A stretch of DNA of 15,163 nucleotides, from assembly GCF_030409905.1 (NCBI RefSeq), contig NZ_JAUFQT010000009.1, forward strand, positions 1-15,163. Direction: 5' to 3'. Of the stretch, positions 1 to 15,163 are shown one piece after another; position 1 is the first letter of the stretch, and every line of letters starts with the position of its first letter. The position numbers were made by a program, and so were the translations under genes. Below the pieces are notes generated by a model. That model did not search any database. It was not told where the DNA came from and worked only from the letters and a program-made list of their open reading frames with translations. The stretch is from Echinicola jeungdonensis (GTDB taxonomy: Bacteria; Bacteroidota; Bacteroidia; Cytophagales; Cyclobacteriaceae).

Positions 1-36
1 GTGGTTGATATAGAGGCCTCTTTGGGAAATAGACAT

Positions 37-78
37 AATTAACCTTTTAGTGACTTAACTAAAAGGTTAATTTTTTTT
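37..78 (+). terminator. Hairpin with U-tract beyond the transposase 3' end (left arm)
   Basis: A perfect 15-bp stem (37-51 with 58-72) closes a 6-nt loop and is followed by a T-run to 78. This is the form of an intrinsic terminator reading rightward. The transposase is on the opposite strand and ends at 220, so the hairpin would stop transcription entering from outside rather than end the transposase transcript. The AT-rich stem weakens the call. Confidence 0.55.
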
Positions 79-219
79 AGGGTACTTTGAAGTAAAATTC
101 AGAGTACAATTTGTGTAAGGAAAAGTACAATTACTGAATTGAAGGGGTTGATTTTTGGGGTGGTTTTGACAATTGGACACACCTGTCCTGTAATCCTTCT
201 TTCCGGCGGTAGTTTTTTG

Positions 220-1569
220 TCAAGCAGCTTTGTTGATGGGCGGGGATTCCTGTTGGTTTCTTCGTTTGGCAACTGCTACGGCGTTGGCTGCCATAATGCC
301 GAACAGCACGGCCAGCTTTTCCCTTTTATCTCCCTTTACTCGTATTTTAACCAGTCCATAGTGGTTTTTATGGTTGCCGAAAGCCCCTTCCATTGCCGTT
401 GCCCTTTGTTTGGAGACTTCAGCACTCAGAATCTTTTCGGCTTTGTTGTGCGGTTTGGGGCCTTTTTTGGGGAAGCCGGTGAATATGTCTTTGAGGTACA
501 ATACTTTCTGTTGGCATTGGTGGCATAAATCCGGTCGGCACCCAGCTGGGAAGTCTGTCCGAAAATCCGGGTATGTTTTAACCGTGGATATTTTCAACCG
601 GGTACATTCATTGAAGTTGTTGAAGTCCAGTTTATCGATAAATGATAGCCCGCCTGTCTGAAGGATATGGGCTTTCATACCGAACTCCACAGGTTTGTTT
701 TTCCTTTCCCCGGACGATCGGCCGGAGATAAGGTTTATGGAGGGAAACGATGCGGTCCTTAAGTTCGGAGGGAGGATTTTCCAACAAAAACTGCTGCTGG
801 ACCAAGACTTTTTTGATGGTCTTCAGACAGGCAAAGTCATTTGGTTTAAGCCCCGCCCCTTGATAAAAGTCTAGGATCTCTTGTAACTGGCCAAGTCCTT
901 TTTCCAACAGGAAGACCAGGGATTTTTTCCTTTTGAGGTTTCCTTAAAGGATTTGCGTCTTTTACGGAAGTAGCCAAGCTGTTTGGCCTTCTGCTCCCTG
1001 TATTTTGACCGGGCCTTTTTATGCCCAATTGTTTACATTTTTTGAACAGTTGCTTTTCAAACACCCACTGGCAGCATTCCCAGAGTAGTTTGGGTCGGTG
1101 GGGAAACGGACATAACTTTCATAACAGGTGGCATCCATTAATAAGACGTGGCTGTTGTCCACATCCTGTTTCCAGTGATCCATTAGTACCTCTTGGATCT
1201 GTTCCCAGTGGCAATGTTCCTCGATGTAGGCCCTGATCCGTGTCATAATGGTAAGGTCCCGGATCTGTTGGTCTGCTGCCAATACTTTCCCGCAGAAATA
1301 CTGAAGGCTCCAGTCGGTATTGAAACGCTCTATCAATTGGCGGTCTGAGGTATTCAGGTAGGCTTTCAAAAACATCAGGGCAAACATGCCCTTGGCACCG
1401 AACCACCTTGGGCACCAGGCCCCTGCAGCTTTTCAGGAACAAGGCTCGAAAGCTTTTCCCATGGCAGGCTGTCATGGATCTGGCCAAGCAAGGAATTCTT
1501 GAAAAAGTGATACTTTGGAGAGTATCCGTCAAAGTCTTTGAAAATAGGGAGCTGTATGGTATCTTTCAT
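220..1569 (-). CDS. IS5/IS1182-type DDE transposase (left-arm copy, frameshifted)
   Basis: Same gene as the right-edge copy. It encodes a cut-and-paste type transposase of about 445 residues. The C-terminal third is the best-read part of this arm: the catalytic Glu region reads MEGAFGNHKNHYG, followed by a basic Arg/Lys-rich tail and a clean stop after PPINKAA. Single-base indels split the rest into short overlapping frames. One indel near 515 turns TSKDIFTG into LKDIFTG after a run of out-of-frame residues. The left arm supplies the correct CCCC in FPTD, while the right arm supplies the correct ACCTCCAAAGAC, so the consensus is intact. The start is ATG at 1569, after a hairpin. Family placement is from recognised motifs, not a search. 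Confidence 0.8.
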
Positions 1570-1604
1570 AGTATTTTTGTCTGCAAACAAAAAATACGAA
1601 AAAG

Positions 1605-1646
1605 AAAACCCCGGAAAAAGCCCTTTTGGACGATTTTCGGGGTTTT
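1605..1646. terminator. Hairpin upstream of the transposase start (left arm)
   Basis: AAAACCCCG at 1605-1613 pairs with CGGGGTTTT at 1638-1646. T-rich runs follow on either strand, so it could act both ways. It lies 35 nt upstream of the transposase ATG at 1569. A hairpin here would shield the transposase from read-through transcription, a feature known in several IS families. The loop is 24 nt, so the folding strength is moderate. Confidence 0.5.
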
Positions 1647-1715
1647 TGAGTTATTTTTTCGCAACCCTGTTTATTAGAGTCAGTGATTTTAGCTAATTAA
1701 CAAGAAGCCCTATAG

Positions 1716-1751
1716 AAAGGTGGTTTGTGCGGACACAAACCACCTTTTTTT
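1716..1751 (+). terminator. Strong intrinsic terminator hairpin (left arm)
   Basis: A perfect 14-bp stem (AAAGGTGGTTTGTG at 1716-1729 with 1734-1747) has a 4-nt CGGA loop and ends in seven Ts. On the opposite strand it ends in a shorter T-run (TTTCT), so it may act in both directions. It lies just past the stop of the small frame at 1754 and after the coiled-coil lipoprotein gene, separating them from the insertion sequence. Confidence 0.75.
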
Positions 1752-1753
1752 AC

Positions 1754-1888
1754 TTATTCCAAAGTCAAAATACAGCCGGAATATTTTTCATTTCCATTGA
1801 ATATTTCACCTTGGAATATGCAGCCTTCCTTCCTGTAAATAAGATATTCGATTCCATTTTGGTCACCGTAATCTATAAGAAAAGAGTA
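1754..1888 (-). CDS. Short unassigned reading frame or 3' gene remnant (left arm)
   Basis: In this arm the frame is open from TAC at 1888 to TAA at 1754. It gives about 44 residues, including YGDQNGIEYLIYRKEGC and FNGNEKYSGCILTLE. The composition looks like protein, and the stop lies directly before a strong terminator, as a real gene end would. No ATG, GTG or TTG was found at a sensible place, and a stop in the same frame lies just upstream (mirror of 13303). It may be the C-terminal remnant of a decayed gene, or part of the preceding lipoprotein's transcript. No family recognised. Confidence 0.35.
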   Translation of the reverse strand, partial: YSFLIDYGDQNGIEYLIYRKEGCIFQGEIFNGNEKYSGCILTLE

Positions 1889-1899
1889 TTATGGAATAC

Positions 1900-2427
1900 C
1901 TAATCCATGGATTCAGGATTGTATTCCAAATCGTAATCGATCATGGTGGAATCCTCCTCAAGCATGGATGGAACCTCATCCCTTCCAATAACTTCTCTGC
2001 GTTCCAGCTCAATTATTACGTCCATTTGCTGGGAAAAGGAGGCATCCTCCTCTCGAAGCCTGTTAAATTCTTCAAGGAGTTCTTCATCACTAAAAGATTC
2101 ATACCTTTTGATTCTTTCCTCCTTGATTTTTTGTTTTTTCTCTGCATCAAAGCTTCTTCTCTTTTTCTAATCGGCTTTCACCGATTTAATGAATTTGGTA
2201 CCTTTTTCAGAGCCATAAAAGGCGCATCTTCACCAGGATTTCCTCCTGTGTCCCATCAATATGAACCACGGTAAGGGTGTCAAATTTTTCCATGGAATAT
2301 TCATCCCCGGATTCTTTGTCCAAGACTTTTTCCTCTTGATATTCAAACTGATCCTCATTTGATGACGAGCATGCCACCAAATGATAAGAGATATAATTAT
2401 TAATATGTTCCTAGTATTCATAATCAT
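1900..2427 (-). CDS. Charged coiled-coil lipoprotein (left-arm copy, frameshifted)
   Basis: Left-arm copy of the 176-residue lipoprotein read cleanly at 12764-13294. Here several one-base losses break it. One near 2395 falls just after the lipobox region, and another near 2170 removes a T and a C from the stretch coding for the Lys/Glu-rich helix. The result is a set of short frames. The 5' end (MIMNTRNILIIISLII) and the 3' end (DLEYNPESMD then TAG) match the intact copy. The lesions are arm-specific, so they are probably read errors. Confidence 0.75.
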
Positions 2428-2459
2428 AAGGTTTTGGTTACTGATTTAATTAAATGGAT

Positions 2460-2933
2460 TCAGTATATTTTCTTATCTGGTTGTCGATCCACATTTGGAA
2501 TACCTCCTTAGCTCCATTTTGTTTAAAATGGATCATGGGTATTTTCCTGTTTTCAGGGGCAATCGGGAGTTCCTGATAAATAAAATCATCATCAACCCAG
2601 CATTGGCGGCATCCTTTCTGGTATTGGCAAAAATACGCGCTTAGGTCTTGCCCAATAAATGGCTCCCAGGCACATAGGGCAAGGTTCACAGGAGGAATAA
2701 ACCTCACAGTCTTCAAGCTGAAAATGTCCAAGTGATTTGCAGGCATCCCGGATGGCCATGATCTCCGCATGAGCAGTTGGGTCATTGGTACTTAGGACAC
2801 TATTGTTTCCTTTTCCAATGACGACCCCCTCTTTTACAACAATACAGCCAAACGGGCCTCCCTTTCCGGAACTCATTCCTTCTTTTGCCAGGGAAATTGC
2901 CATTTCCATAAAGGTTCGTTGCTGTTCAGTCAT
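2460..2933 (-). CDS. guaD: Guanine deaminase, GuaD-like (left-arm copy, frameshifted late)
   Basis: Left-arm copy of the zinc-dependent deaminase. This arm reads correctly from ATG at 2933 through the zinc site: GGPFGCIVV, then TAHAEIMAIRDAC, then SCEPCPMCLGAIYWARP. It then loses single bases near 2640 and 2590-2610, so the frame slides after RVF. The right arm is correct in that part and reads FFANTRKDAANAGFDDDFIYQE. The merged protein is 158 residues, the usual length for Bacillus subtilis-type GuaD. The ATG follows an AT-rich ~200-nt leader that separates it from the upstream DsbD_N-like gene, so guaD may have its own promoter. Confidence 0.85.
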
Positions 2934-3134
2934 TTGCTTATAATCGGTTTGTTTCCATAATATTAAAAGCCTTTCAAAAGCAATTCAAAACCTCAGGCTT
3001 CCTTTATGAAAATAACCATATGATTGGTAAAATGAAAAAATAAAAGAGATAAATATCCGCAGAATTAAAGATTTTAGGAGCTAAAGGAATTAAATCGCCT
3101 TTTTTCTGAAAATTCAAAGCAAATGGATAAGTTG

Positions 3135-3593
3135 TTAGTTTTGCAAGTCTATGTTAAAATTTAAAGTCCTTGGAAAAAAGCATTTATAGGCATTGCAAGC
3201 TTGATAGTATAATTCTCCTGGGATTTTAAAAGTCCCCTTTTGGCTTTTTTTACCAAAATTTCACAGTGAATTGATTAGAAAATACTTGCAAAGGCTGATC
3301 TTCTCCAATCATTTTGAAAGTTTTTGGGGCAGAAAACTGAGCAGAGTCAATTTGAAAAGATGCTGGCCATTCTATGGTAATCCGGGTTGGAATAAAATTG
3401 GGGTCATTCACTTCATCTGCCTGAATGTGCATTCCATTTTGAATGGCAAAAACCAACTCTAGCTGTTGATTATTTTCTTTAAGGTAATTTGCTCATTAAT
3501 CAGTTTTACCCAGTGTTTTTCTTGTCCATTTGCTGGAAGGGTGATCCCAATCAGTAGGAGTATCCCAATACTAATTTTCAGACAATAGCTCAT
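3135..3593 (-). CDS. Stand-alone DsbD N-terminal-like domain protein (left-arm copy)
   Basis: Left-arm copy of the 152-residue secreted domain protein described for the right arm. This arm reads well in the middle (AIQNGMHIQADEVNDPNFIPTR). One A is missing near 3480 (TTAAAG for TTAAAAG) early in the gene. Near 3255 both arms show an apparent stop: here the frame ends KFW then TAA. The frame that continues as FGKKSQKGTFKIPGE and LYYQACNAYKCFFP is open to TAA at 3135. The stop is therefore probably a miscalled T-run rather than the natural end. Confidence 0.6.
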
Positions 3594-4125
3594 CAAGTTT
3601 AGCTTTAAGCCCCAAAAGTTTTGCGTCAAAATTCTTAGAATCCAGCAAGGACATATATTGGATATTTCCCTCCAGATCAACTAATATATTGGAGGCAAGC
3701 ATTACTTCATCCCCGGGCCAAGTCGGGCAATACGTCCTCAGGGGCAAAACTTGCCGCCCAGTCCCATCTTCATCCAATATTACCGGGAAGCTAAATTGAA
3801 ACGGTCTTGCAGTTTTTCTTTTTACCAGGGAAGCAGGTTCTTTCACATCGATAATGAGGACTTTGACATTTTTATTTCTGTAATTCTGGGCTAGCTCTTC
3901 AAGATAGGGAGCTTCGGCATTGCAAAACGGACACCAGGTAGTAGCAATATGGATGACCAAATAGCCGCCTTTGAAATCTTCAGAGGAAATAGTATTGCCT
4001 TCCAGATCCACTAATGTGAAATCCGGAAGTTCCATTCCCTTGGAGTCCATTGATTCGGTCTGGCCTTGTGCCCATAAAGGCAGACTAATCAAATAAAGGA
4101 CTAATATGGATATTTTATAATTCAT
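3571..4125 (-). CDS. TlpA-like thioredoxin, secreted (left-arm copy, compensated frameshifts)
   Basis: This arm appears to hold an uninterrupted frame, but part of it is wrong. Compensating one-base indels between about 3700 and 3830 change VKEKLQDRFNFSF to VKRKTARPFQFSF and scramble the stretch after DEDGT. The right arm reads each affected segment differently, and the merged version is VAASFAPEDVLPDLARDEVML, which fits a thioredoxin fold. The start used here is ATG at 4125, whose signal peptide is MNYKISILVLYLISLPLWAQ. An ATG 36 nt further upstream would add a charged, non-signal-like stretch and is rejected. Confidence 0.85.
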   Translation of the reverse strand: MNYKISILVLYLISLPLWAQGQTESMDSKGMELPDFTLVDLEGNTISSEDFKGGYLVIHIATTWCPFCNAEAPYLEELAQNYRNKNVKVLIIDVKEPASLVKRKTARPFQFSFPVILDEDGTGRQVLPLRTYCPTWPGDEVMLASNILVDLEGNIQYMSLLDSKNFDAKLLGLKAKLDELLSEN

Positions 4126-4438
4126 TGATGTATAGCGTTTTATGTCTGTAAATATAATCAATATTTAAATGATTTTTCTGGATTTCAATGATCTTCAAAC
4201 CGGAAAAACCTGTTGAAATAATGAATAGAGAAATTTATTAGGAGATCAAGTTAAATTTCTTTTTGAACCGATATAATGATAATAATATTTTATTCTATAA
4301 ACATTGAAATACAGTTATTTAAACTTTGTTTTATTTGATTAGGGGGGTAAAAGAATTAAATTTTGATAATACTTAAAAACCTGCTGGTATTAAAAAATTC
4401 GTATCCATATTTTCATTTAAAATTAACCCAAAACAACC
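4126..4438. promoter_or_regulatory. Divergent intergenic region (left arm)
   Basis: About 310 nt of very AT-rich DNA between the divergently read tlpA and lipoprotein genes, so it must hold promoters for both. A possible Bacteroidota-type promoter for the lipoprotein side has TTTG near 4328 and a TAAATTTTG stretch about 4356, close to the TTTG / TAnnTTTG pattern but with an extra base. No Shine-Dalgarno-like sequence precedes either start, as usual in this phylum. No RNA structure or operator was recognised. Confidence 0.35.
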
Positions 4439-5146
4439 ATGAAAGGCTTAGTTATTTTCCTAACAGCTTCAATTTCGCTGTTTATTTTGGCTTGTTCTGA
4501 GATTGAAGAAGAAGCAGCGTATGTGGGTGTTCCCAAAATTTCTTTGGGTTCTTATGAATAGGGAATTTGGCTGATGAATGGGCTCGTAAAGGTGGTACCC
4601 AAAACAGTCAACCAGTTTTTGCCTTTTCTGATCCAAGTAGCCCTGTGGAAGGGTCTTCAGCCGGTCTAATAAGGGGGCCAAGGGAATTTCAATGAGTTTG
4701 CATGCAGAGGAACTTATAGCGGGAATGCTTATACCATCTGGTTTGTAATATTCAATGCCCCTGAAAATTGTGCCACCAGTCCATGCGGTGAACCAGACAT
4801 TTTTAATCCTGAAACCATGACAGATGTTTCCTTTGGAGGAGGAAATATCGCAGGAAATTCCTCTATAACCATAAGTGGCCATAAAAAAGTAGGAGACTTG
4901 TCTGGATCTGCTATGCCTTTTTTTAATGACTTGTTGGGATTAGATATTCCGATATTCGGCTTAATAGACCCTTGGGGTGCAGAAGTGCATTTGGTGCTTC
5001 GAAGTCATGGTCCAAAAGTACCTGCTAATATGCCGGATTTAATCAATTCATTTGATGGAGGATGTACCACTTTTCTCGATGCTGGTCAGGTTACTGATGA
5101 CCCTGGAGAATGTGCCGATTCCCATTTCGCTATTTTTCAACCTTAA
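4439..5146 (+). pseudogene. Secreted lipoprotein, broken in both arms (left copy)
   Basis: Starts MKGLVIFLTASISLFILACS, a lipoprotein signal peptide with Cys near residue 19, followed by EIEEEAAYVGVPKISLGSYE. An in-frame TAG follows, then the same frame continues as GNLADEWARKGGTQNSQPVF. Near 4672 the frame shifts once more, and the rest reads NEFACRGTYSGNAYTIWF, CATSPCGEPDIFNPE and VHLVLRSHGPKVPANMPDL to a stop at 5144-5146. The Cys-rich C-terminal domain resembles uncharacterised Bacteroidota secreted proteins, function unknown. The TAG is identical in both arms. The G-run at 4672 differs between arms and neither length restores the frame. It is either a real pseudogene or carries repeated under-calling of a long G-run. 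Confidence 0.65.
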
Positions 5147-5164
5147 AAAACATTTTGTCTTAAG

Positions 5165-5191
5165 GGCGGGCAAAAAAGCTCGCCTTTTTTT
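5165..5191 (+). terminator. Terminator of the secreted lipoprotein gene (left arm)
   Basis: GGCGGGC at 5165-5171 pairs with GCTCGCC at 5178-5184 (one G-U pair) around an AAAAAA loop, followed by seven Ts. It is a textbook intrinsic terminator 18 nt after the stop codon at 5146. Confidence 0.9.
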
Positions 5192-5639
5192 ACCCATTTC
5201 AATTGAAAAAAGTGGTTTCTATTTCTAATACTGATTGAATTCCCTATTTCTTCAAAAGTGTGAAATTATTCACCTTAAGTAGGGGCTAATATGAGGTAGA
5301 AGATACCGGCGGTGTATTTGATAGGGATTATTCCATCTTTTCCTGAAGCGTTAGAAAAATAACAGGGTTATCTGAACTTTTGGTTATTCATGGAAGCCTA
5401 ATGTGAATCGCTTTCAGAATTCTACCTTAGCTAGGTAATCAAAGAGAATTATTGTGTACACTCAGTTGACAGATGAATTGATGTCCAATTATCAAATGTA
5501 ATTTTTAATAACAGTAAATCTATAAAATTCGATTCCGGCAATTACCAACTGGAAGTTTTCTTGTGACCAATTTTATCTCACTAACTTGATTAAGTTGAGT
5601 AATAAAGAAAATCATAATCCCAAGATCAGCTTATAAGGA
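5192..5639. other. Spacer without a recognised gene (left arm)
   Basis: About 450 nt between the lipoprotein terminator and the end of the PPTase remnant. No frame of convincing length or composition is shared by both arms. It has no tRNA-like cloverleaf and no repeats beyond a short AACTT-GATT-AAGTT hairpin near 5584. Lying between two decayed genes, it may be debris of a former gene. Confidence 0.5.
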
Positions 5640-6354
5640 TTAATGATAAAATGAGAGGTCACCTAAATCTCCATCAGTAGCAACAGCTGCTGGATATTCT
5701 TTCCCGGTGTAATGATCTCGTGCATACCAATTTGAATTTTACAATCCCCAATTTAAGATATGGATTAGTGAAGGTGATTTTCCACTAATTGAGGATACAT
5801 ACAATGGCTCCATTGGAAAAGAAAGCCCTTTCCCAAAAGCTTTAAGTAAAGCTTCCTTTCTTGTCTAAAATTGAATAAATATTTCCGGTCTTTTTTCCTG
5901 AGTAATTTCCTTTATTAACCTGATTTCCCTCTTAAAAAAAAATTACGGATAAAATGATCATAAGAAACATCATGTCGAATTTGCTCAATTTCGATCCTAA
6001 CATTCCGATTTTTAGAAAAATCTAAAGGGCTTTGTTGCTGGAATGTGATAGATCGAAATTGATGTTTTCCCAACCAATTTCTGGTCTTAATTGGGGTTTC
6101 CCATATTTAATAATCAAATTGAATTTGATCGGGTTTTATCTCTATATAAAAGCCCAAGATTTGACGTAACAATCCACGTGCAGCAATTGATTGGATTTTA
6201 TTTTTTTCAAAATGAAGCCTTCCAACCTTTTCAAGCTCCTCAATAGAAAGTATTGATGTTAAATATTTTCTTTGCCTTCACCTAAATCAAGGGAGAATCG
6301 CCAAATATGAACCGTGCCTTTAGGGGTGACATAATTGGAATCGAATGTTGTCAA
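5640..6354 (-). pseudogene. Sfp-type 4'-phosphopantetheinyl transferase remnant (left copy)
   Basis: Left copy of the PPTase remnant described for the right arm. It carries the same shared lesions: the extra T after FDY, TAG in place of Trp in WTRKEA, a frameshift inside GKGLSF, and an in-frame TAA after LNWGL. It ends at TAA 5640-5642. TTG at 6354 is the first in-frame start candidate. An ATG at 6374 would serve if the AAA run after it were one base longer. Upstream, the P450 stop lies 23 nt away, so the two were probably one operon. Confidence 0.65.
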
Positions 6355-6377
6355 TGAACTAGATGTTTGGTCATATT

Positions 6378-7604
6378 TTACTTTCTTTTTTCTAGTTGCA
6401 TCAGTATCCCATTTTTGGGTCTGAGGTTTAATAATTGGGCCATTTCCACCACTTGATCCGGCACCAATTTTAGCCGCCAAATTGAGAGATTGAAGCGATA
6501 ACCATAACCCCCTCTAACCAGGCATAATGCTGACCAATACATGAACGTGGACCTTCACTGAATGGAAAATACTCATATTTTGATTTTTGTCGATTAGTGG
6601 AAGGTGCCCAAGATTGAGGATTGAACTTCATGGGGTCTTTATGAAACCTTGAATCGTGATGTATCAGGTAAGGGCTCATCAAGACAATGGTTCCCTTAGG
6701 ATGAAATAATCGCCGATTGTTAAATTTGAACGGGCTTCTCGGACGATAACATAAATAGGGGGGTATAACCGCATTGCTTCTGTGAAAACCATTTTGGTAA
6801 ATTTCAACTTTGGATAATCATCCAAAGTAGGTTGCCGACCTTGTAATACTTGGTCGACTTCTTCATGTAATTCTTCCTCAGCTAGTGGATTTTGCGAAAG
6901 GAGGTACCAGGTCCAGGTAAGAGCAAGGGAAGTAGTGTCAAATGCGGTGAGTAATAGAGTAAGGGCTTCATCCCGGATTTCCTCATTGCTGATCCCACGA
7001 TCTTTTTTATTTTGTTTCTTGGGCTAAAAGTAGCAGGGAAAGTAAATCACCTTTGTCTAATTTAGTTTTCCCGCGCTCTTCAATAATTTTATAAATGATT
7101 TTATCCAATCGACTTTTTGCTTTAAAAATCTAATAGAGCCTGGAAGAGGAAGCTTAAGCAAATATTCCGCAAATGGAAGGGTTACCCTTCCAAAAATATC
7201 CATTATAGATTCAAATTCCTGATTAATTTCTGCAGCTTCTTCTTCTAAATCAACACCAAACATGGTCTTTCCAGCAATTCCGGTACTCATTCTGACCATT
7301 TCTTTAAAAATATCCACCGATGTCCCATTTTTCCAGCCGTTCATTAACCTTGAGGCAAATTCTGACATGACAGGGGAATAAATGTCCATCATTTTCCGGT
7401 GAAATGCCGGTTGCATTATTCGCGAATGGTGCTTATGAAAATCCCCTTCACTAGTAAGCAATCCCTCTCCTAATAGTTCTTTTGCCATTTTTAGGGGCCT
7501 ACCTTTGACGAAATTATCCTGTTGTGTGGAAAGCACTTCTTTGATAAAGTCCGGGTGATTTAACAGTAAAATTCGAAGATGTCCTATTTTAAATTGAGCA
7601 ATAT
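6378..7604 (-). CDS. Cytochrome P450, N-terminus missing (left copy, frameshifted)
   Basis: Left copy of the P450 described for the right arm, running from the palindrome centre toward TAA at 6378. This arm reads the first third well: NHPDFIKEVL, FVKGRPLKMAKELLGEG, FHKHHSRIMQPAFHRKM and TGIAGKTMFGVD. It then loses a T near 7130 and gains an A near 7015. It reads the C-terminal end better than the right arm: LRPKNGILMQLEKRK then stop, and HHDSRFHKDPMKF. The heme-ligand stretch FPFSEGPRSCIG is intact at about 6530-6575. Merging with the right arm gives one continuous protein with no shared lesion seen. Confidence 0.85.
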
Positions 7605-7608
7605 GGAG
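7605..7608. other. Centre (fold-back point) of the palindrome
   Basis: The four bases GGAG are the only unpaired ones between the arms. Read into the right arm they belong to the P450 frame: TAT GGA GAT ATT GCT gives Y-G-D-I-A, continuing into QFKIG, as expected for the start of a P450 beta-sheet region. Read into the left arm the same frame gives Leu-His instead of Gly-Asp. The turn therefore sits in the middle of a coding sequence with a few bases of ATAT microhomology. That is typical of a broken or self-primed DNA end and unlike an evolved telomere or origin. Confidence 0.85.
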
Positions 7609-8829
7609 ATATTGCTCAATTTAAAATAGGACATCTTCGAATTTTACTGTTAAATCACCCGGACTTTATCAAAGAAGTGCTTTCCACACAACAGGATAAT
7701 TTCGTCAAAGGTAGGCCCCTAAAAATGGCAAAAGAACTATTAGGAGAGGGATTGCTTACTAGTGAAGGGGATTTTCATAAGCACCATTCGCGAATAATGC
7801 AACCGGCATTTCACCGGAAATGATGGACATTTATTCCCCTGTCATGTCAGAATTTGCCTCAAGGTTAATGAACGGCTGGAAAATGGGACATCGGTGGATA
7901 TTTTTAAAGAAATGGTCAGAATGAGTACCGGAATTGCTGGAAAGACCATGTTTGGTGTTGATTTAGAAGAAGAAGCTGCAGAAATTAATCAGGAATTTGA
8001 ATCTATAATGGATATTTTTGGAAGGGTAACCCTTCCATTTGCGGAATATTTGCTTAAGCTTCCTCTTCCAGGCTCTATTAGATTTTTTAAAGCAAAAAGT
8101 CGATTGGATAAAATCATTTATAAAATTATTGAAGAGCGCCGGAAAACTAAATTACAAAGGTGATTTACTTTCCCTGCTACTTTTAGCCCAAGAAACAAAT
8201 AAAAAAGATCGTGGGATCAGCAATGAGGAAATCCGGGATGAAGCCCTTACTCTATTACTCACCGCATTTGACACTACTTCCCTTGCTCTTACCTGGACCT
8301 GGTACCTCCTTTCGCAAAATCCACTAGCTGAGGAAGAATTACATGAAGAAGTCGACCAAGTATTACAAGGTCGGCAACCTACTTTGGATGATTATCCAAA
8401 GTTGAAATTTACCAAATGGTTTTCACAGAAGCAATGCGGTTATACCCCCTATTTATGTTATCGTCCGAGAAGCCCGTTCAAATTTAACAATCGGCGATTA
8501 TTTCATTCCTAAGGGAACCATTGTCTTGATGAGCCCTTACCTGATACATCACGATTCAAGTTTCATAAAGACCCCATGAAGTTCAATCCTCAATCTTGGG
8601 CACCTTCCACTAATCGACAAAAATCAAAATATGAGTATTTTCCATTCAGTGAAGGTCCACGTTCATGTATTGGTCAGCATTATGCCTGGTTAGAGGGGGT
8701 TATGGTTATCGCTTCAATCTCTCAATTTTGGCGGCTAAAATTGGTGCCGGATCAAGTGGTGGAAATGGCCCAATTATTAAACCTCAGACCCAAAATGGGA
8801 TACTGATGCAACTAGAAAAAAGAAAGTAA
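7605..8829 (+). CDS. Cytochrome P450, N-terminus missing (right copy, frameshifted)
   Basis: Heme-thiolate monooxygenase that would insert one oxygen atom into an organic substrate using electrons from a redox partner; the substrate is unknown. Visible elements in order: YGDIAQFKIG at the cut end; NHPDFIKEVLSTQQDNFVKG; the I-helix AFDTTS at 8264-8281; the K-helix E-x-x-R (EAMR, 8428-8439) followed by LYPP; and FPFSEGPRSCIG, with the heme-ligand Cys at 8666-8668. About 408 residues remain, and roughly 50-70 N-terminal residues are absent because the window folds back here. Right-arm losses (near 7822, 7884, 8411) break the frame; the left arm is intact at each. The soluble-looking sequence resembles CYP102-like bacterial P450s, but no subfamily is claimed. 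The PPTase remnant follows after about 20 nt. Confidence 0.87.
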
Positions 8830-8849
8830 AATACCAAACATCTAGTTCA

Positions 8850-9559
8850 TTGACAACATTCGATTCCAATTATGTCACCCCTAAAGGCACGGTTCATATT
8901 TGGCGATTCTCCCTTGATTTAGGTGAAGGCAAAGAAAATATTTAACATCAATACTTTCTATTGAGGAGCTTGAAAAGGTTGGAAGGCTTCATTTTGAAAA
9001 AAATAAAATCCAATCAATTGCTGCACGTGGATTGTTACGTCAAATCTTGGGCTTTTATATAGAGATAAAACCCGATCAAATTCAATTTGATTATTAAATA
9101 TGGGAACCCCAATTAAGACCAGAAATTGGTTGGGAAAACATCAATTTCGATCTATCACATTCCAGCAACAAAGCCCTTTTAGATTTTTCTAAAATCGGAA
9201 TGTTAGGATCGAAATTGAGCAAATTCGACATGATGTTTCTTATGATCATTTTATCCGTATTTTTTTTTAAGAGGGAAATCAGGTTAATAAAGAAATTACT
9301 CAGGAAAAAAGACCGAAATATTTATTCAATTTTAGACAAGAAAGGAAGCTTTACTTAAAGCTTTTGGAAAGGGCTTTCTTTTCCAATGGAGCCATTGTAT
9401 GTATCCTCAATTAGTGGAAAATCACCTTCACTAATCCATATCTTAAATTGGGGATTGTAAAATTCAAATTGGTATGCACGAGATCATTACACCGGGAAAG
9501 AATATCCAGCAGCTGTTGCTACTGATGGAGATTTAGGTGACCTCTCATTTTATCATTAA
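8850..9559 (+). pseudogene. Sfp-type 4'-phosphopantetheinyl transferase remnant (right copy)
   Basis: Sfp-type PPTases transfer the phosphopantetheine arm of CoA to carrier proteins of fatty acid, polyketide or peptide synthases. Pieces in order: GTVHIWRFSLDL; LHFEKNKIQSIAARGLLRQIL; a stretch equivalent to YGKPQL; NFDLSHSSNKAL; NVRIEIEQIRHDVSYDHF; TRKEALLKAFGKG; PLYVSSISGKSPSLIHIL; KEYPAAVATDG. The magnesium-binding G-(I/V)-D-x-E motif reads R-I-E-I-E. The WTRKEA Trp codon is TAG. An in-frame TAA follows LNWGL, and two or more frameshifts are present. All these are the same in both arms, so unlike the indels in the other genes they are unlikely to be read noise. Probably a true pseudogene. 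About 236 codons in total, a normal length for the family. Confidence 0.72.
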
Positions 9560-10006
9560 TCCTTATAAGCTGATCTTGGGATTATGATTTTCTTTATTAC
9601 TCAACTTAATCAAGTTAGTGAGATAAAATTGGTCACAAGAAAACTTCAGTTGGTAATTGCCGAATCGAATTTTATAGATTTACTGTTATTAAAAATTACA
9701 TTTGATAATTGGACATCAATTCATCTGTCAACTGAGTGTACACAATAATTCTCTTTGATTACCTAGCTAAGGTAGAATTCTGAAAGCGATTCACATTAGG
9801 CTTCCATGAATAACCAAAGTTCAGATAACCCTGTTATTTTTTCTAACGCTTCAGGAAAAGATGGAATAATCCCTATCAAATACACCGCCGGTATCTTCTA
9901 CCTCATATTAGCCCCTACTTAAGGTGAATAATTTCACACTTTTGAAGAAATAGGGAATTCAATCAGTATTAGAAATAGAAACCACTTTTTTCAATTTGAA
10001 ATGGGT
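9560..10006. other. Spacer without a recognised gene (right arm)
   Basis: Mirror of 5192-5639. Two short frames are open here on the plus strand: one from about 9584 (MIFFITQLNQ) and one at 9806-9922 (MNNQSSDNPVIF, 38 residues). Both are disrupted in the left arm by one-base differences, and neither resembles a known protein, so they are not called as genes. Confidence 0.45.
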
Positions 10007-10033
10007 AAAAAAAGGCGAGCTTTTTTGCCCGCC
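10007..10033 (-). terminator. Terminator of the secreted lipoprotein gene (right arm)
   Basis: Exact mirror of the left-arm terminator, with stem 10014-10020 / 10027-10033 and the U-tract encoded by the A-run at 10007-10013. It separates the lipoprotein gene from the spacer and the converging PPTase remnant. Confidence 0.9.
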
Positions 10034-10051
10034 CTTAAGACAAAATGTTTT

Positions 10052-10753
10052 TTAAGGTTGAAAATAGCGAAATGGGAATCGGCACATTCTCCAGGTCATC
10101 AGTAACCTGACCAGCATCGAGAAAAGTGGTACATCCTCCATCAAATGAATTGATTAAATCCGGCATATTAGCAGGTACTTTTGGACCATGACTTCGAAGC
10201 ACCAATGCACTTCTGCACCCAAGGGTCTATTAAGCCGAATATCGGAATATCTAATCCCAACAAGTCATTAAAAAAGGCATAGCAGATCCAGACAAGTCTC
10301 CTACTTTTTTATGGCCACTTATGGTTATAGAGGAATTTCCTGCGATATTTCCTCCTCCAAGGAAACATCTGTCATGGTTTCAGGATTAAAAATGTCTGGT
10401 TCACCGCATGGACTGGTGGCACAATTTTCAGGGCATTGAATATTACAAACCAGATGGTATAAGCATTCCCCGCTATAAGTTCCTCTGCATGCAAACTCAT
10501 TGAAATTCCCTTTGGCCCCTTATTAGACCGGCTGAAGACCCTTCCACAGGGCTACTTGGATCAGAAAAGGCAAAAACTGGTTGACTGTTTTGGGTACCAC
10601 CTTTACGAGCCCATTCATCAGCCAAATTCCCCTATTCATAAGAACCCAAAGAAATTTTGGGAACACCCACATACGCTGCTTCTTCTTCAATCTCAGAACA
10701 AGCCAAAATAAACAGCGAAATTGAAGCTGTTAGGAAATAACTAAGCCTTTCAT
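10052..10753 (-). pseudogene. Secreted lipoprotein, broken in both arms (right copy)
   Basis: Mirror of 4439-5146. The signal peptide is followed by the same in-frame TAG near 10636. In this arm the G-run reads four Gs and the following A-run three As, against five and two in the other arm. Merging both gives only one of the two bases needed to restore the frame, so at least one lesion is shared. Further arm-specific losses occur, for example near 10270. The C-terminal part still reads DDPG, GECADSHFAIF-like residues in fragments. Unknown function. Confidence 0.6.
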
Positions 10754-11064
10754 GGTTGTTTTGGGTTAATTTTTTAATGAAAATATGGATACAATTTTTT
10801 AATACCAGCAGGTTTTTAAGTATTATCAAAATTAATTCTTTTACCCCCTAATCAAATAAAACAAAGTTTAAATAACTGTATTTCAATGTTTTATAGAATA
10901 AAATATTATTATCATTATATCGGTTCAAAAGAAATTTAACTTGATCTCCTAATAAATTTCTCTATTCATTATTTCAACAGGTTTTTCCGGTTTGAAGATC
11001 ATTGAAATCCAGAAAAATCATTTAAATATTGATTATATTTACAGACATAAAACGCTATACATCA
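10754..11064. promoter_or_regulatory. Divergent intergenic region (right arm)
   Basis: Mirror of the left-arm region between the same two divergent genes. On the tlpA side, TATATTTA at 11034-11041 is a possible -7 element 24 nt before the ATG. No matching TTTG lies at the expected distance, so the call is weak. Nothing else was seen here. Confidence 0.3.
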
Positions 11065-11619
11065 ATGAATTATAAAATATCCATATTAGTCCTTTATTTG
11101 ATTAGTCTGCCTTTATGGGCACAAGGCCAGACCGAATCAATGGACTCCAAGGGAATGGAACTTCCGGATTTCACATTAGTGGATCTGGAAGGCAATACTA
11201 TTTCCTCTGAAGATTTCAAAGGCGGCTATTTGGTCATCCATATTGCTACTACCTGGTGTCCGTTTTGCAATGCCGAAGCTCCCTATCTTGAAGAGCTAGC
11301 CCAGAATTACAGAAATAAAAATGTCAAAGTCCTCATTATCGATGTGAAAGAACCTGCTTCCCTGGTAAAAGAAAAACTGCAAGACCGTTTCAATTTTAGC
11401 TTCCGGTAATATTGGATGAAGATGGGACTGTGGCGGCAAGTTTTTGCCCCTGAGGACGTATTGCCCGACTTGGCCCGGGATGAAGTAATGCTTGCCTCCA
11501 ATATATTAGTTGATCTGGAGGGAAATATCCAATATATGTCCTTGCTGGATTCTAAGAATTTTGACGCAAAACTTTTGGGGCTTAAAGCTAAACTTGATGA
11601 GCTATTGTCTGAAAATTAG
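11065..11619 (+). CDS. TlpA-like thioredoxin, secreted (right-arm copy, frameshifted)
   Basis: A 184-residue consensus protein with a Sec signal peptide (cut near WAQ-GQ) and a TlpA/ResA-type thioredoxin fold outside the cytoplasm. The active-site motif is WCPFC in TTWCPFCNAEAPYLEEL, at about residues 67-71. Upstream elements are FTLVDLEGNTISSEDFKGGYLVIH, given here as separate pieces FTLVDLEGNT and FKGGYLVIH. Such proteins reduce or exchange disulfides, for example on apocytochrome c or other envelope proteins. One C is missing near 11405 and a T is gained near 11442, breaking this copy. The next gene, a DsbD N-terminal-like domain, starts inside its last codons, so the two are translationally coupled and probably act on one thiol pathway. 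The specific substrate is unknown. Confidence 0.88.
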
Positions 11620-12053
11620 TATTGGGATACTCCTACTGATTGGGATCACCCTTCCAGCAAATGGACAAGAAAAACACTGGGTAAAACTGATTAATGAGCA
11701 AATTACCTTAAAAGAAAATAATCAACAGCTAGAGTTGGTTTTTTGCCATTCAAAATGGAATGCACATTCAGGCAGATGAAGTGAATGACCCCATTTTATT
11801 CCAACCCGGATTACCATAGAATGGCCAGCATCTTTTCAAATTGACTCTGCTCAGTTTTCTGCCCCAAAAACTTTCAAATGATTGGAGAAGATCAGCCTTT
11901 GCAAGTATTTTCTAATCAATTCACTGTGAAATTTTTGTAAAAAAGCCCAAAAGGGGACTTTTAAAATCCCGGAGAATTATACTATCAAGCTTGCAATGCC
12001 TATAAATGCTTTTTTCCAAGGACTTTAATTTTAACATAGACTTGCAAAACTAA
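11597..12053 (+). CDS. Stand-alone DsbD N-terminal-like domain protein (right-arm copy)
   Basis: A predicted secreted domain of about 152 residues. It has a Sec signal peptide (MSYCLKISIGILLLIGITLP, cut near ANGQ), then a beta-rich stretch with GMHIQAD, FIPTRITIEWP and APKTFKM. The end is YYQACNAYKCFFP, which resembles the YQGC-x-C-xPP end of the DsbD alpha domain (DsbD_N) and its Cys pair. In full-length DsbD this domain hands electrons to periplasmic partners and is fused to a membrane domain and a thioredoxin domain. Here it stands alone and overlaps the 3' end of the TlpA gene by 23 nt. The right arm has an extra T near 11745, a missing A near 11794 and an ambiguous T-run near 11935 that gives a stop in both arms. 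A truncated 114-residue form is the alternative. Confidence 0.62.
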
Positions 12054-12255
12054 CAACTTATCCATTTGCTTTGAATTTTCAGAAAAAGGCGATTTAATTC
12101 CTTTAGCTCCTAAAATCTTTTAATTCTGCGGATATTTATCTCTTTTTATTTTTTCATTTTACCAATCATATGGTTATTTTCATAAAGGAAGCCTGAGGTT
12201 TTGAATTGCTTTTGAAAGGCTTTTAATATTATGGAAACAAACCGATTATAAGCAA

Positions 12256-12731
12256 ATGACTGAACAGCAACGAACCTTTATGGAAATGGCAATTTCCCTG
12301 GCAAAAGAAGGAATGAGTTCCGGAAAGGGAGGCCCGTTTGGCTGTATTGTTGTAAAAGAGGGGGTCGTCATTGAAAAGGAAACAATAGTGTCCTAAGTAC
12401 CAATGACCCAACTGCTCATGCGGAGATCATGGCCATCCGGGATGCCTGCAAATCACTTGGACATTTTCAGCTTGAAGACTGTGAGGTTTATTCCTCCTGT
12501 GAACCTTGCCCTATGTGCCTGGGAGCCATTTATTGGGCAAGACCTAAGCGCGTATTTTTTGCCAATACCAGAAAGGATGCCGCCAATGCTGGGTTTGATG
12601 ATGATTTTATTTATCAGGAACTCCCGATTGCCCCTGAAAACAGGAAAATACCCATGATCCATTTTAAACAAAATGGAGCTAAGGAGGTATTCCAAATGTG
12701 GATCGACAAACCAGATAAGAAAATATACTGA
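12256..12731 (+). CDS. guaD: Guanine deaminase, GuaD-like (right-arm copy, one frameshift)
   Basis: Predicted cytosolic enzyme that hydrolyses guanine to xanthine and ammonia in purine salvage. The zinc ligands are visible: His in TAHAE, with the catalytic proton-shuttle Glu next to it, and the two Cys of EPCPMC. The stretches GGPFG, NDPTAHAE, SCEPCPMCLGAIYWARP and AGFDDDFIY closely resemble B. subtilis GuaD as I remember it, which favours guanine deaminase over the tRNA adenosine deaminase TadA. The C-terminus ends in aromatic KKIY, as in GuaD. One missing G near 12372 (ATTGAAAAG for ATTGGAAAAG) breaks the frame, and the left arm has it intact. The coiled-coil lipoprotein gene follows after 32 nt. 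Confidence 0.88.
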
Positions 12732-12763
12732 ATCCATTTTAATTAAATCAGTAACCAAACCTT

Positions 12764-13294
12764 ATGATTATGAATACTAGGAACATATTAATAATTATAT
12801 CTCTTATCATTTTGGTGGCATGCTCGTCATCAAATGAGGATCAGTTTGAATATCAAGAGGAAAAGGTCTTGGACAGAATCCGGGATGAATATTCCATGGA
12901 AAAATTTGACACCCTTACCGTGGTTCATATTGATGGGACACAGGAGGAAATCCTGGTGGAAGATGCGCCTTTTTATGGCTCTGAAAAAGGTACCAAATTC
13001 ATTAAATCCGGTGAAAGCCGATTAGAAAAAAGAGAAGAAGCTTTGATGGCAGAGAAAAAACAAAAAATCAAGGAGGAAAGAATCAAAAGGTATGAATCTT
13101 TTAGTGATGAAGAACTCCTTGAAGAATTTAACAGGCTTCGAGAGGAGGATGCCTCCTTTTCCCAGCAAATGGACGTAATAATTGAGCTGGAACGCAGAGA
13201 AGTTATTGGAAGGGATGAGGTTCCATCCATGCTTGAGGAGGATTCCACCATGATCGATTACGATTTGGAATACAATCCTGAATCCATGGATTAG
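12764..13294 (+). CDS. Charged coiled-coil lipoprotein, hypothetical (intact copy)
   Basis: A complete 176-residue frame. Residues 1-20 form a lipoprotein signal peptide with a lipobox-like LVAC and Cys at about position 20, followed by SSSNED, so the mature protein is probably lipid-anchored to the envelope. Residues 85-150 are very rich in Glu, Lys and Arg (EKREEALMAEKKQKIKEER, FSDEELLEEFNRLREED) and should form a long helix or coiled coil. The C-terminus is acidic. It starts 32 nt after the guaD stop on the same strand, so the two are probably co-transcribed. I do not recognise a family or function. This is the only gene fully readable in one arm without correction. Confidence 0.8.
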   Translation: MIMNTRNILIIISLIILVACSSSNEDQFEYQEEKVLDRIRDEYSMEKFDTLTVVHIDGTQEEILVEDAPFYGSEKGTKFIKSGESRLEKREEALMAEKKQKIKEERIKRYESFSDEELLEEFNRLREEDASFSQQMDVIIELERREVIGRDEVPSMLEEDSTMIDYDLEYNPESMD

Positions 13295-13305
13295 GTATTC
13301 CATAA

Positions 13306-13439
13306 TACTCTTTTCTTATAGATTACGGTGACCAAAATGGAATCGAATATCTTATTTACAGGAAGGAAGGCTGCATATTCCAAGGTGAAATATTCAATGG
13401 AAATGAAAATATTCCGGCTGTATTTTGACTTTGGAATAA
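13306..13439 (+). CDS. Short unassigned reading frame or 3' gene remnant (right arm)
   Basis: Mirror of the frame at 1754-1888. Here one A is missing near 13409 (GAAAAT for GAAAAAT), so the last residues shift to NIPAVF instead of KYSGCILTLE. The left-arm version ends exactly in front of the terminator and is probably the correct one. It follows the lipoprotein stop at 13294 by about 11 nt in a different frame. No start codon is evident, so a gene remnant is as likely as a small gene. Confidence 0.3.
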
Positions 13440-13441
13440 GT

Positions 13442-13477
13442 AAAAAAAGGTGTTTGTGTCCGCACAAACCACCTTTT
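13442..13477. terminator. Strong intrinsic terminator hairpin (right arm)
   Basis: Mirror copy with a 4-nt loop (TCCG) and a stem of 13446-13458 with 13463-13476. One G is missing from the GGTGG run, which bulges the helix. The left copy is perfect. It follows the small reading frame ending at 13439 and would end the guaD-lipoprotein transcript. Confidence 0.7.
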
Positions 13478-13545
13478 CTATAGGGCTTCTTGTTAATTAG
13501 CTAAATCACTGACTCTTAATAAACAGGGTTGCGAAAAATAACTCA

Positions 13546-13595
13546 AAAACCCCGAAAATCGTCCAAAAGGGCTTTTTCCGGGGTTTTCTTTTTCG
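13546..13595. terminator. Hairpin upstream of the transposase start (right arm)
   Basis: Mirror of the left-arm hairpin. The stem pairs 13546-13554 with 13579-13587 and is followed by TTTTCTTTTT, just ahead of the transposase ATG at 13623. The sequence matches the left copy, so it is not a read error. It is a probable insulator against outside transcription. Confidence 0.5.
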
Positions 13596-13622
13596 TATTT
13601 TTTGTTTGCAGACAAAAATACT

Positions 13623-14960
13623 ATGAAAGATACCATACAGCTCCCTATTTTCAAAGACTTTGACGGATACTCTCCAAAGTATCACTTTTTCAAGAATTCC
13701 TTGCTTGGCCAGATCCATGACAGCCTGCCATGGGAAAAGCTTTCGAGCCTTGTTCCTGAAAAGCTGCAGGGGCCTGGTGCCCCAAGGTGGTTCGGTGCCA
13801 AGGCATGTTTGCCCTGATGTTTTTGAAAGCCTACCTGAATACCTCAGACCGCCATTGATAGAGCGTTTCAATACCGACTGGAGCCTTCAGTATTTCTGCG
13901 GGAAGTATTGGCAGCAGACCACAGATCCGGGACCTTACCATTATGACACGGATCAGGGCCTACATCGAGGAACATTGCCACTGGGAACAGATCCAAGAGG
14001 TACTAATGGATCACTGGAAACAGGATGTGGACAACAGCCACGTCTTATTAATGGATGCCACCTGTTATGAAAGTTATGTCCGTTTCCCACCGACCCCAAA
14101 CTACTCTGGGAATGCTGCCAGTGGGTGTTTGAAAAGCAACTGTTCAAAAATGTAAACAATTGGGCATAAAAAGGCCCGGTCAAAATACAGGGAGCAGAAG
14201 GCCAAACAGCTTGGCTACTTCCGTAAAAGACGCAAATCCTTTAAGGAAACCCTCAAAAGGAAAAAATCCCTGGTCTTCCTGTTGGAAAAAGGACTTGGCC
14301 AGTTACAAGAGATCCTAGACTTTTATCAAGGGGCGGGGCTTAAACCAAATGACTTTGCCTGTCTGAAGACCATCAAAAAAGTCTTGGTCCAGCAGCAGTT
14401 TTGTTGGGAAATCCTCCCTCCGAACTTAAGGACCGCATCGTTTCCCTCCATAAACCTTATCTCCGGCCGATCGTCCGGGAAAGGAAAACAAACCTGTGGA
14501 GTTCGGTATGAAAGCCATATCCTTCAGACAGGCGGGCTATCATTTATCGATAAACTGGACTTCAACAACTTCAATGAATGTACCCGGTTGAAAATATCCA
14601 CGGTAAAACATACCCGGATTTTCGGACAGACTTCCCAGCTGGTGCCGACCGATTTATGCCACCAATGCCAACAGAAAGTATTGTACCTCCAAAGACATAT
14701 TCACCGCTTCCCCAAAAAAGGCCCAAACCGCACAACAAAGCCGAAAAGATTCTGAGTGCTGAAGTCTCCAAACAAAGGGCAACGGCAATGGAAGGGGCTT
14801 TCGGCAACCATAAAAACCACTATGGACTGGTTAAAATACGAGTAAAGGGAGATAAAAGGGAAAAGCTGGCCGTGCTGTTCGGCATTATGGCAGCCAACGC
14901 CGTAGCAGTTGCCAAACGAAGAAACCAACAGGAATCCCCGCCCATCACAAAGCTGCTTGA
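13623..14960 (+). CDS. IS5/IS1182-type DDE transposase (right-arm copy, frameshifted)
   Basis: Encodes the transposase of an insertion sequence that cuts and joins DNA at the element ends. The two-arm consensus is about 445 residues starting MKDTIQLPIF. An N-terminal DUF772-like region (about 50-130) contains MFALMFLKAYLNTSDRQLIE. The probable first catalytic Asp is in LLMDATCYESYVRFPTD (about 143). A basic linker includes PRSKYREQKAKQLGYFRKRR. The second Asp is in LGADRIYATNANR (about 341), and the Glu is in MEGAFGNHKNHYGL (about 390), with the usual following Lys. This copy is broken by one-base indels, for example near 13860 and 14095 and a missing A in CCCATCA-CAAA near 14947, so its nominal frame overruns the true stop at 14958-14960. 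No clean terminal repeats or target duplication could be fixed. GGGTTG at 13526 and CAACCC at 15028 are a weak pair. Confidence 0.82.
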
Positions 14961-15099
14961 CAAAACTACCGCCGGAAAGAAGGATTACAGGACAGGTGTG
15001 TCCAATTGTCAAAACCACCCCAAAAATCAACCCCTTCAATTCAGTAATTGTACTTTTCCTTACACAAATTGTACTCTGAATTTTACTTCAAAGTACCCT

Positions 15100-15141
15100 A
15101 AAAACAAATTAACCTTTAGTTAAGTCACTAAAAGGTTAATT
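15100..15141 (-). terminator. Hairpin with U-tract beyond the transposase 3' end (right arm)
   Basis: Mirror copy of the left-edge hairpin. One T of the stem is missing (CCTTT instead of CCTTTT) and a C interrupts the A-run near 15105, so the helix is imperfect here. The perfect stem in the other arm suggests these are read errors. Confidence 0.5.
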
Positions 15142-15163
15142 ATGTCTATTTCCAAAGAGGCCT

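Follow-up and report, generated by a model that had tools for sequence, protein, structure and literature searches.

A palindromic contig in the Echinicola jeungdonensis assembly is almost certainly a fold-back artefact of one chromosomal region

Introduction

Contig NZ_JAUFQT010000009.1 of Echinicola jeungdonensis (assembly GCF_030409905.1), here called C9, is a palindrome of two 7.6 kb arms that meet inside a copy of a cytochrome P450 gene. The window analysed here is the whole of this contig (15,163 nt), one of 13 contigs (C1 to C13) in an assembly of 4,534,283 bases. The window is almost certainly an artefact contig and not a structure of the genome.

Three described classes of sequencing artefact resemble C9. 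Missed SMRTbell adapters give reads that are structured like amplification palindromes and can affect assembly, and 0.5% of reads were flagged in an unamplified control, according to the Pacasus report (PMC6218980). C9 is like a read with a missed or missing SMRTbell adapter in that it holds both strands of one insert in tandem. Unlike missed-adapter reads, it shows no remnant at its centre of the adapter sequence used for comparison, and the looped end probably carried no adapter rather than one that was missed.

PMC12870357 defines the foldback artefact reads described with Breakinator by a second alignment that covers the same locus on the opposite strand and by a breakpoint near the read midpoint. 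The paper places foldbacks mainly in nanopore libraries; among its three PacBio samples, HiFi and Mas-Seq had almost none and Iso-Seq had 0.03%. The window fits this definition, but here the reads became contigs.

In multiple displacement amplification, displaced 3' ends anneal to nearby strands and give inverted chimeras, as described in PMC13265396. C9 shares the inverted-repeat structure of these chimeras. The same paper describes complex reads with multiple inversions, whereas seven of the eight palindromic contigs found here have a single symmetric fold.

Structure of the palindromic contig

Aligned with its own reverse complement, C9 gives one full-length minus-strand BLASTN match over positions 14-15163, with 98.49% identity in 15,254 columns (22 mismatches and 208 gap positions). 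The match is too long to have arisen by chance. The preliminary description had placed a 2 x 7.6 kb palindrome with a 4-nt centre at 14-15163, and both the coordinates and the centre were right: the exact centre, GGAG, lies between positions 7604 and 7609, and the arms pair exactly for the adjoining 212 bp on either side. Its statement that the mirroring runs from the first bases to the last holds for 14-15163 but not for bases 1-13, which are unmirrored. Bases 3-13 of this tip are the chromosomal flank C1:55310-55300, and bases 1-2 do not align. The arms are not letter-perfect and differ mainly by small insertions or deletions (indels). An ungapped, rigid comparison of the arms gives only 39% identity, because about 200 small indels shift the register.

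The single chromosomal copy

The 7.6 kb unit occurs once in the chromosome contig C1 (C1:47665-55310), with different sequence flanking either side. This is the non-palindromic copy in the same assembly that the preliminary description had proposed to look for. Positions 3-7604 of C9 align with C1:55310-47679 at 99.39% identity (1 mismatch and 46 gap positions in 7640 columns), and positions 7595-15163 with C1:47665-55299 at 99.03% identity (4 mismatches and 70 gap positions in 7637 columns). The two halves map to one place on opposite strands, and the breakpoint, at about 7606 of 15163, is within 10% of the midpoint. C1 reads straight through the fold point into different sequence. C9, C12 and C13 all lack the 35-nt C1 sequence spanning the fold point, and the 32-nt fold junction does not occur in C1:40001-60000.

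The fold lies within codons 38-43 of a 451-aa gene (C1:47552-48907) that belongs to the Pfam cytochrome P450 family (E 1.9e-84). The gene is intact in C1, and its copies in C9, C12 and C13 start at about residue 38 and are in pieces, many with stops. Several further genes, among them those for a transposase and a deaminase, are full-length in C1 and fragmented in the window. A few stay near full length there, such as a redoxin-like frame of 196 aa on the left arm and a frame of 176 aa on the right. With window positions 1400-7590 as the query, seven copies of the unit are found in the assembly, one in C1 and two each in C9, C12 and C13. Gene copy numbers had been suspected of being artificially doubled, and the inflation is in fact more than twofold. 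The unit and its borders contain 15 open reading frames of 90 aa or more, and the proteins of nine of them were given to Pfam; seven fell into families and two had no match. Rfam at gathering thresholds gave no match in L051:5000-17000.

A protein search with the P450 sequence in 39 genomes, its own included, gave matches in nine, again including its own. None of the ten genomes of the same genus has a match at E <= 0.001, and the best other match has 32% identity, so the relatives are unusable as a check on this locus. A P450 scan of genome contigs gave 28 pattern matches and no confirmed relatives, the records of the source genome possibly having been excluded from it. With only distant matches in eight other genomes, the P450 gene may be acquired or often lost.

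Sister contigs

C12 (15,101 bp) and C13 (15,104 bp) are the same palindrome as C9 with the same exact centre, which both write as CTCC, the reverse complement of the GGAG in C9. The outer ends lie on C1 at 55310 and 55299 for C9, 55301 and 55237 for C12, and 55229 and 55310 for C13. The start of C9 is the reverse complement of the end of C13 over the 60 bases compared, and these identical tips include two or three bases that depart from the chromosome. The remaining outer ends of the three contigs are 9 to 81 bp further in. Random fragments of independent origin would be unlikely to coincide at the centre and also at one end, and the three contigs therefore most likely derive from one molecule.

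Error signature

The base composition of C9 is nearly equal in A (4608) and T (4666), as a palindrome makes it by construction, and unbiased errors should therefore delete both bases equally. Over both arms, the ratio of A to T deletions is 55:7 in C9, 8:49 in C12 and 13:50 in C13 (binomial p of 2e-10, 3e-8 and 3e-6, respectively). Within each of the three contigs, the bias in one arm is for the same base as in the other, suggesting that one strand was read continuously through both arms and that the sequence is not a two-strand consensus. A T-deletion bias is likewise found in both arms of C5, C7 and C8. The non-palindromic contig C10 has little bias in its main part (13 A, 10 T), and C11 has more (27 A, 6 T). 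Written in the orientation of T deletion, the loop reads CTCC in all three contigs (C9 being reversed), for which the chance is 1 in 4.

The deletions cluster in runs of at least three (26-45 of the 37-67 per arm), while such runs make up 28% of the bases. Between C9, C12 and C13, 24-35 error events are common to the same arm for one arm and 16-18 for the other, versus 3-6 between opposite arms.

Fold-backs and chimeras across the assembly

Eight of the 11 small contigs (C4, C5, C6, C7, C8, C9, C12 and C13) are palindromic and come from five chromosomal sites. C4 and C6 were tested for this on their first 20 kb and later on their whole length. When 8,001-base pieces of the arms of C4, C5, C6 and C7 were compared with the genome, each had one long match outside the palindromic contigs, and the search with the C7 arm found additional 1.6 kb pieces in C10 and C11. 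The outer ends agree within 0-81 bp in seven of the eight palindromic contigs (0, 1, 2, 11, 11, 64 and 81). C6 differs in layout: it folds twice, at 1094326 and 1080907, and so reads forward, in reverse and then forward once more.

The other three small contigs are chimeras of two loci. C10 and C11 are the same chimera twice, with C1:840738 joined to C1:2025916, and the non-palindromic C3 joins C1:879695 to C2:1003255. All 11 small contigs (208,308 bp) match C1 or C2 end to end, save for one or two tip bases, and are therefore redundant.

Fold-backs are present at the ends of C1 as well. Its first 18 kb are an inverted copy of the sequence that follows, with a fold at about 18,015, and overlap the end of C2; its last 19 kb fold back at 3,208,690, inside the overlap with the start of C2. 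The two fold-back regions are C1:1-36063 and C1:3189641-3227711. In all, the assembly has eight distinct fold points, and folding thus recurs at unrelated places. This survey rests on searches and selected stretches, outside which lie the long interiors of C1 and C2. These two contigs hold most of the genome, and C1 without its overlaps and fold-backs probably joins with C2 into one circle of about 4,241,426 bp.

Proposed origin and alternatives

The artefact reading of C9 rests on four observations. The single C1 copy passes through the fold point; C9, C12 and C13 share a centre and similar ends; the same base is preferentially deleted in both arms; and there are many further fold-backs, in seven other palindromic contigs and at both ends of C1. 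The preliminary description had explained C9 as a contig made from a fold-back read or an amplification chimera, and the flanked C1 copy and the other fold-backs support this.

In a fragment spanning C1:47.67-55.31 kb, a tiny loop at the 47.67 kb end would have connected the two strands. A long read could then follow one strand into the loop and return on the other, and the assembler would keep this fold-back read as a contig of its own. The molecule behind C9 was probably also the source of C12 and C13. Among the artefactual routes, a fairly good case can be made for an in vitro snap-back of the 3' end, with an adapter only at the outer end and repeated circular-template passes that gave rise to the three contigs. 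Repeated reading of one molecule may also account for the duplicate contigs of three molecules (C9/C12/C13, C7/C8 and C10/C11), which favours a circular-template platform.

Several observations weigh against this origin. Short inverted repeats were considered as the cause of folding and rejected, since the stems at seven of the eight fold points are no stronger than at random positions (mean 4.1 versus 3.6, P = 0.14); they are kept only as a possibility. A stem as long as that at the C9 centre occurs at about 18% of random positions. The best local score of the SMRTbell adapter at the C9 centre is 6 of 45, with shuffles reaching up to 8, and in the six contigs compared over their whole length (C5, C7, C8, C9, C12 and C13) the adapter sequence used is no better matched than in shuffles. 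The outer end of C9 is 11 bp from the end of an insertion sequence, which is rare under random breakage. C4 has a T bias in its first arm only (19 T, 3 A), with 3 and 3 in the second, and C6 has a mixed bias, with A:T deletions of 53:10, 15:21 and 1:8 in its successive parts; C4 and C6 are therefore not each one simple read. Finally, the errors shared by the same arms of C9, C12 and C13 could also be systematic errors of one strand, and by themselves do not prove a single molecule.

A fold-back made by whole-genome amplification before sequencing is a less favoured but still credible variant of the same artefact. C9, C12 and C13 would then be copies of one amplified strand-displacement chimera. 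Strand-displacement amplification is a known source of palindromic reads, often many per library (PMC6218980, PMC13265396), and the two-locus chimeras C3 and C10/C11 are in keeping with it. However, the agreement between loop orientation and error bias in all three contigs is predicted by one hairpin with a single adapter and is not required by amplified duplexes. The genome also seems more contiguous, with most of it in two contigs, than would be expected of heavily amplified DNA.

It is also conceivable, if quite unlikely, that some of the hairpin-closed molecules existed in living cells as fold-backs at broken or stalled chromosome ends and were then sequenced. The hint in this direction is the outer end 11 bp from the insertion sequence, which could point to transposase-linked breakage.

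It is highly improbable that the cells, or a fraction of them, truly carry an inverted duplication or a palindromic element. The palindrome is carried by three contigs, but since these share an end and the centre they probably count as one molecule. They end at C1:55229-55310 on both sides, no arm joins the flank beyond C1:55310, and the copy with two flanks is single. Seven other fold points in the same assembly also speak against it.

The hairpin end of a linear replicon, whose covalently closed end would yield a fold-back read, has next to no probability, as C1 continues past a fold that lies inside the P450 gene, one genome has eight different fold points, and none of the seven Pfam-matched proteins (of the nine given to Pfam) is in a replication or telomere-resolution family. 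On the strength of the through-running C1 copy and the recurrent fold-backs, a hairpin telomere, an inverted duplication and a real palindromic replicon were rejected.

Implications for the assembly

There is no new biology in the palindromic window. Its significance is as a quality warning, since 11 of the 13 contigs of a public assembly (208,308 bp) are chimeras that duplicate chromosomal sequence, and fold-backs are also found at both ends of C1, the largest contig. Counts of genes and of insertion-sequence copies that are based on this genome come out too high, and the contamination estimate of the assembly (2.46) may be inflated as well. Such contigs can be detected by a combined pattern, in which a contig matches its own reverse complement, has a single copy elsewhere and has a same-base deletion bias in both arms.

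Feature coordinates and minor observations

Table 1. Features of contig C9 (window coordinates) and chromosomal copies of the palindromic contigs (C1 coordinates)
Feature	Coordinates	Strand	Basis or remark
Unmirrored tip	1..13	none	Bases 3-13 are flank outside the insertion sequence, which ends at C1:55299
Left arm, reverse strand of C1:47679-55299	14..7604	-	Alignment to C1
Centre GGAG	7605..7608	none	Parent C1 stretch AATAT-GGAG-ATATT
Right arm, forward strand of the same C1 region to C1:55299	7609..15163	+	Alignment to C1
Truncated, frameshifted cytochrome P450 copy, starting at about residue 38	6381..7604	-	Intact gene in C1
Mirror copy of the truncated P450 gene	7609..8818	+	Broken pieces in C9
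Insertion sequence, left-arm copy (DUF772 / DDE transposase)	14..1712	-	1,702 bp in C1
Insertion sequence, mirror copy	13481..15163	+	Match to the C1 copy
Chromosomal copy of C4	C1:597653-611748
Chromosomal copy of C5	C1:476283-485786
Chromosomal copy of C6	C1:1080907-1094326
Chromosomal copy of C7 and C8 (one unit)	C1:833891-842636
Chromosomal copy of C9, C12 and C13	C1:47665-55310

The insertion sequence of the unit (C1:53598-55299) has matches at seven places in C1 and C2. A fold point of C6 is about 130 bp from another copy, and the outer end of C9 is 11 bp beyond one; this is probably coincidence.

Window positions 5402-5453 (C1:49847-49886) hold a lone sequence with 95% identity over 40 nt to a repeat of the clustered regularly interspaced short palindromic repeats (CRISPR) type. 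The matching array, which has a period of about 76 bp, lies at a distance of about 20 kb (C1:27574-29666), and the lone repeat is in the orientation of the array. It may be a relic or a stray repeat.

The C2 copy of the CRISPR region encodes pieces of Cas9, Cas1 and Cas2. At the end of C2 (L052:4426-11045), Cas9 and Cas1 each occupy two frames instead of one, whereas in the overlapping part of C1 an open frame of 297 aa stands where Cas1 would be (L050:6223-7116). The splits probably stem from indel errors close to the ends of contigs. At C1:20738-20760 (L050:738-760), 23 nt match the CRISPR repeat exactly, in the opposite orientation and just upstream of the place equivalent to cas9; this match is perhaps the anti-repeat of a trans-activating CRISPR RNA (tracrRNA).

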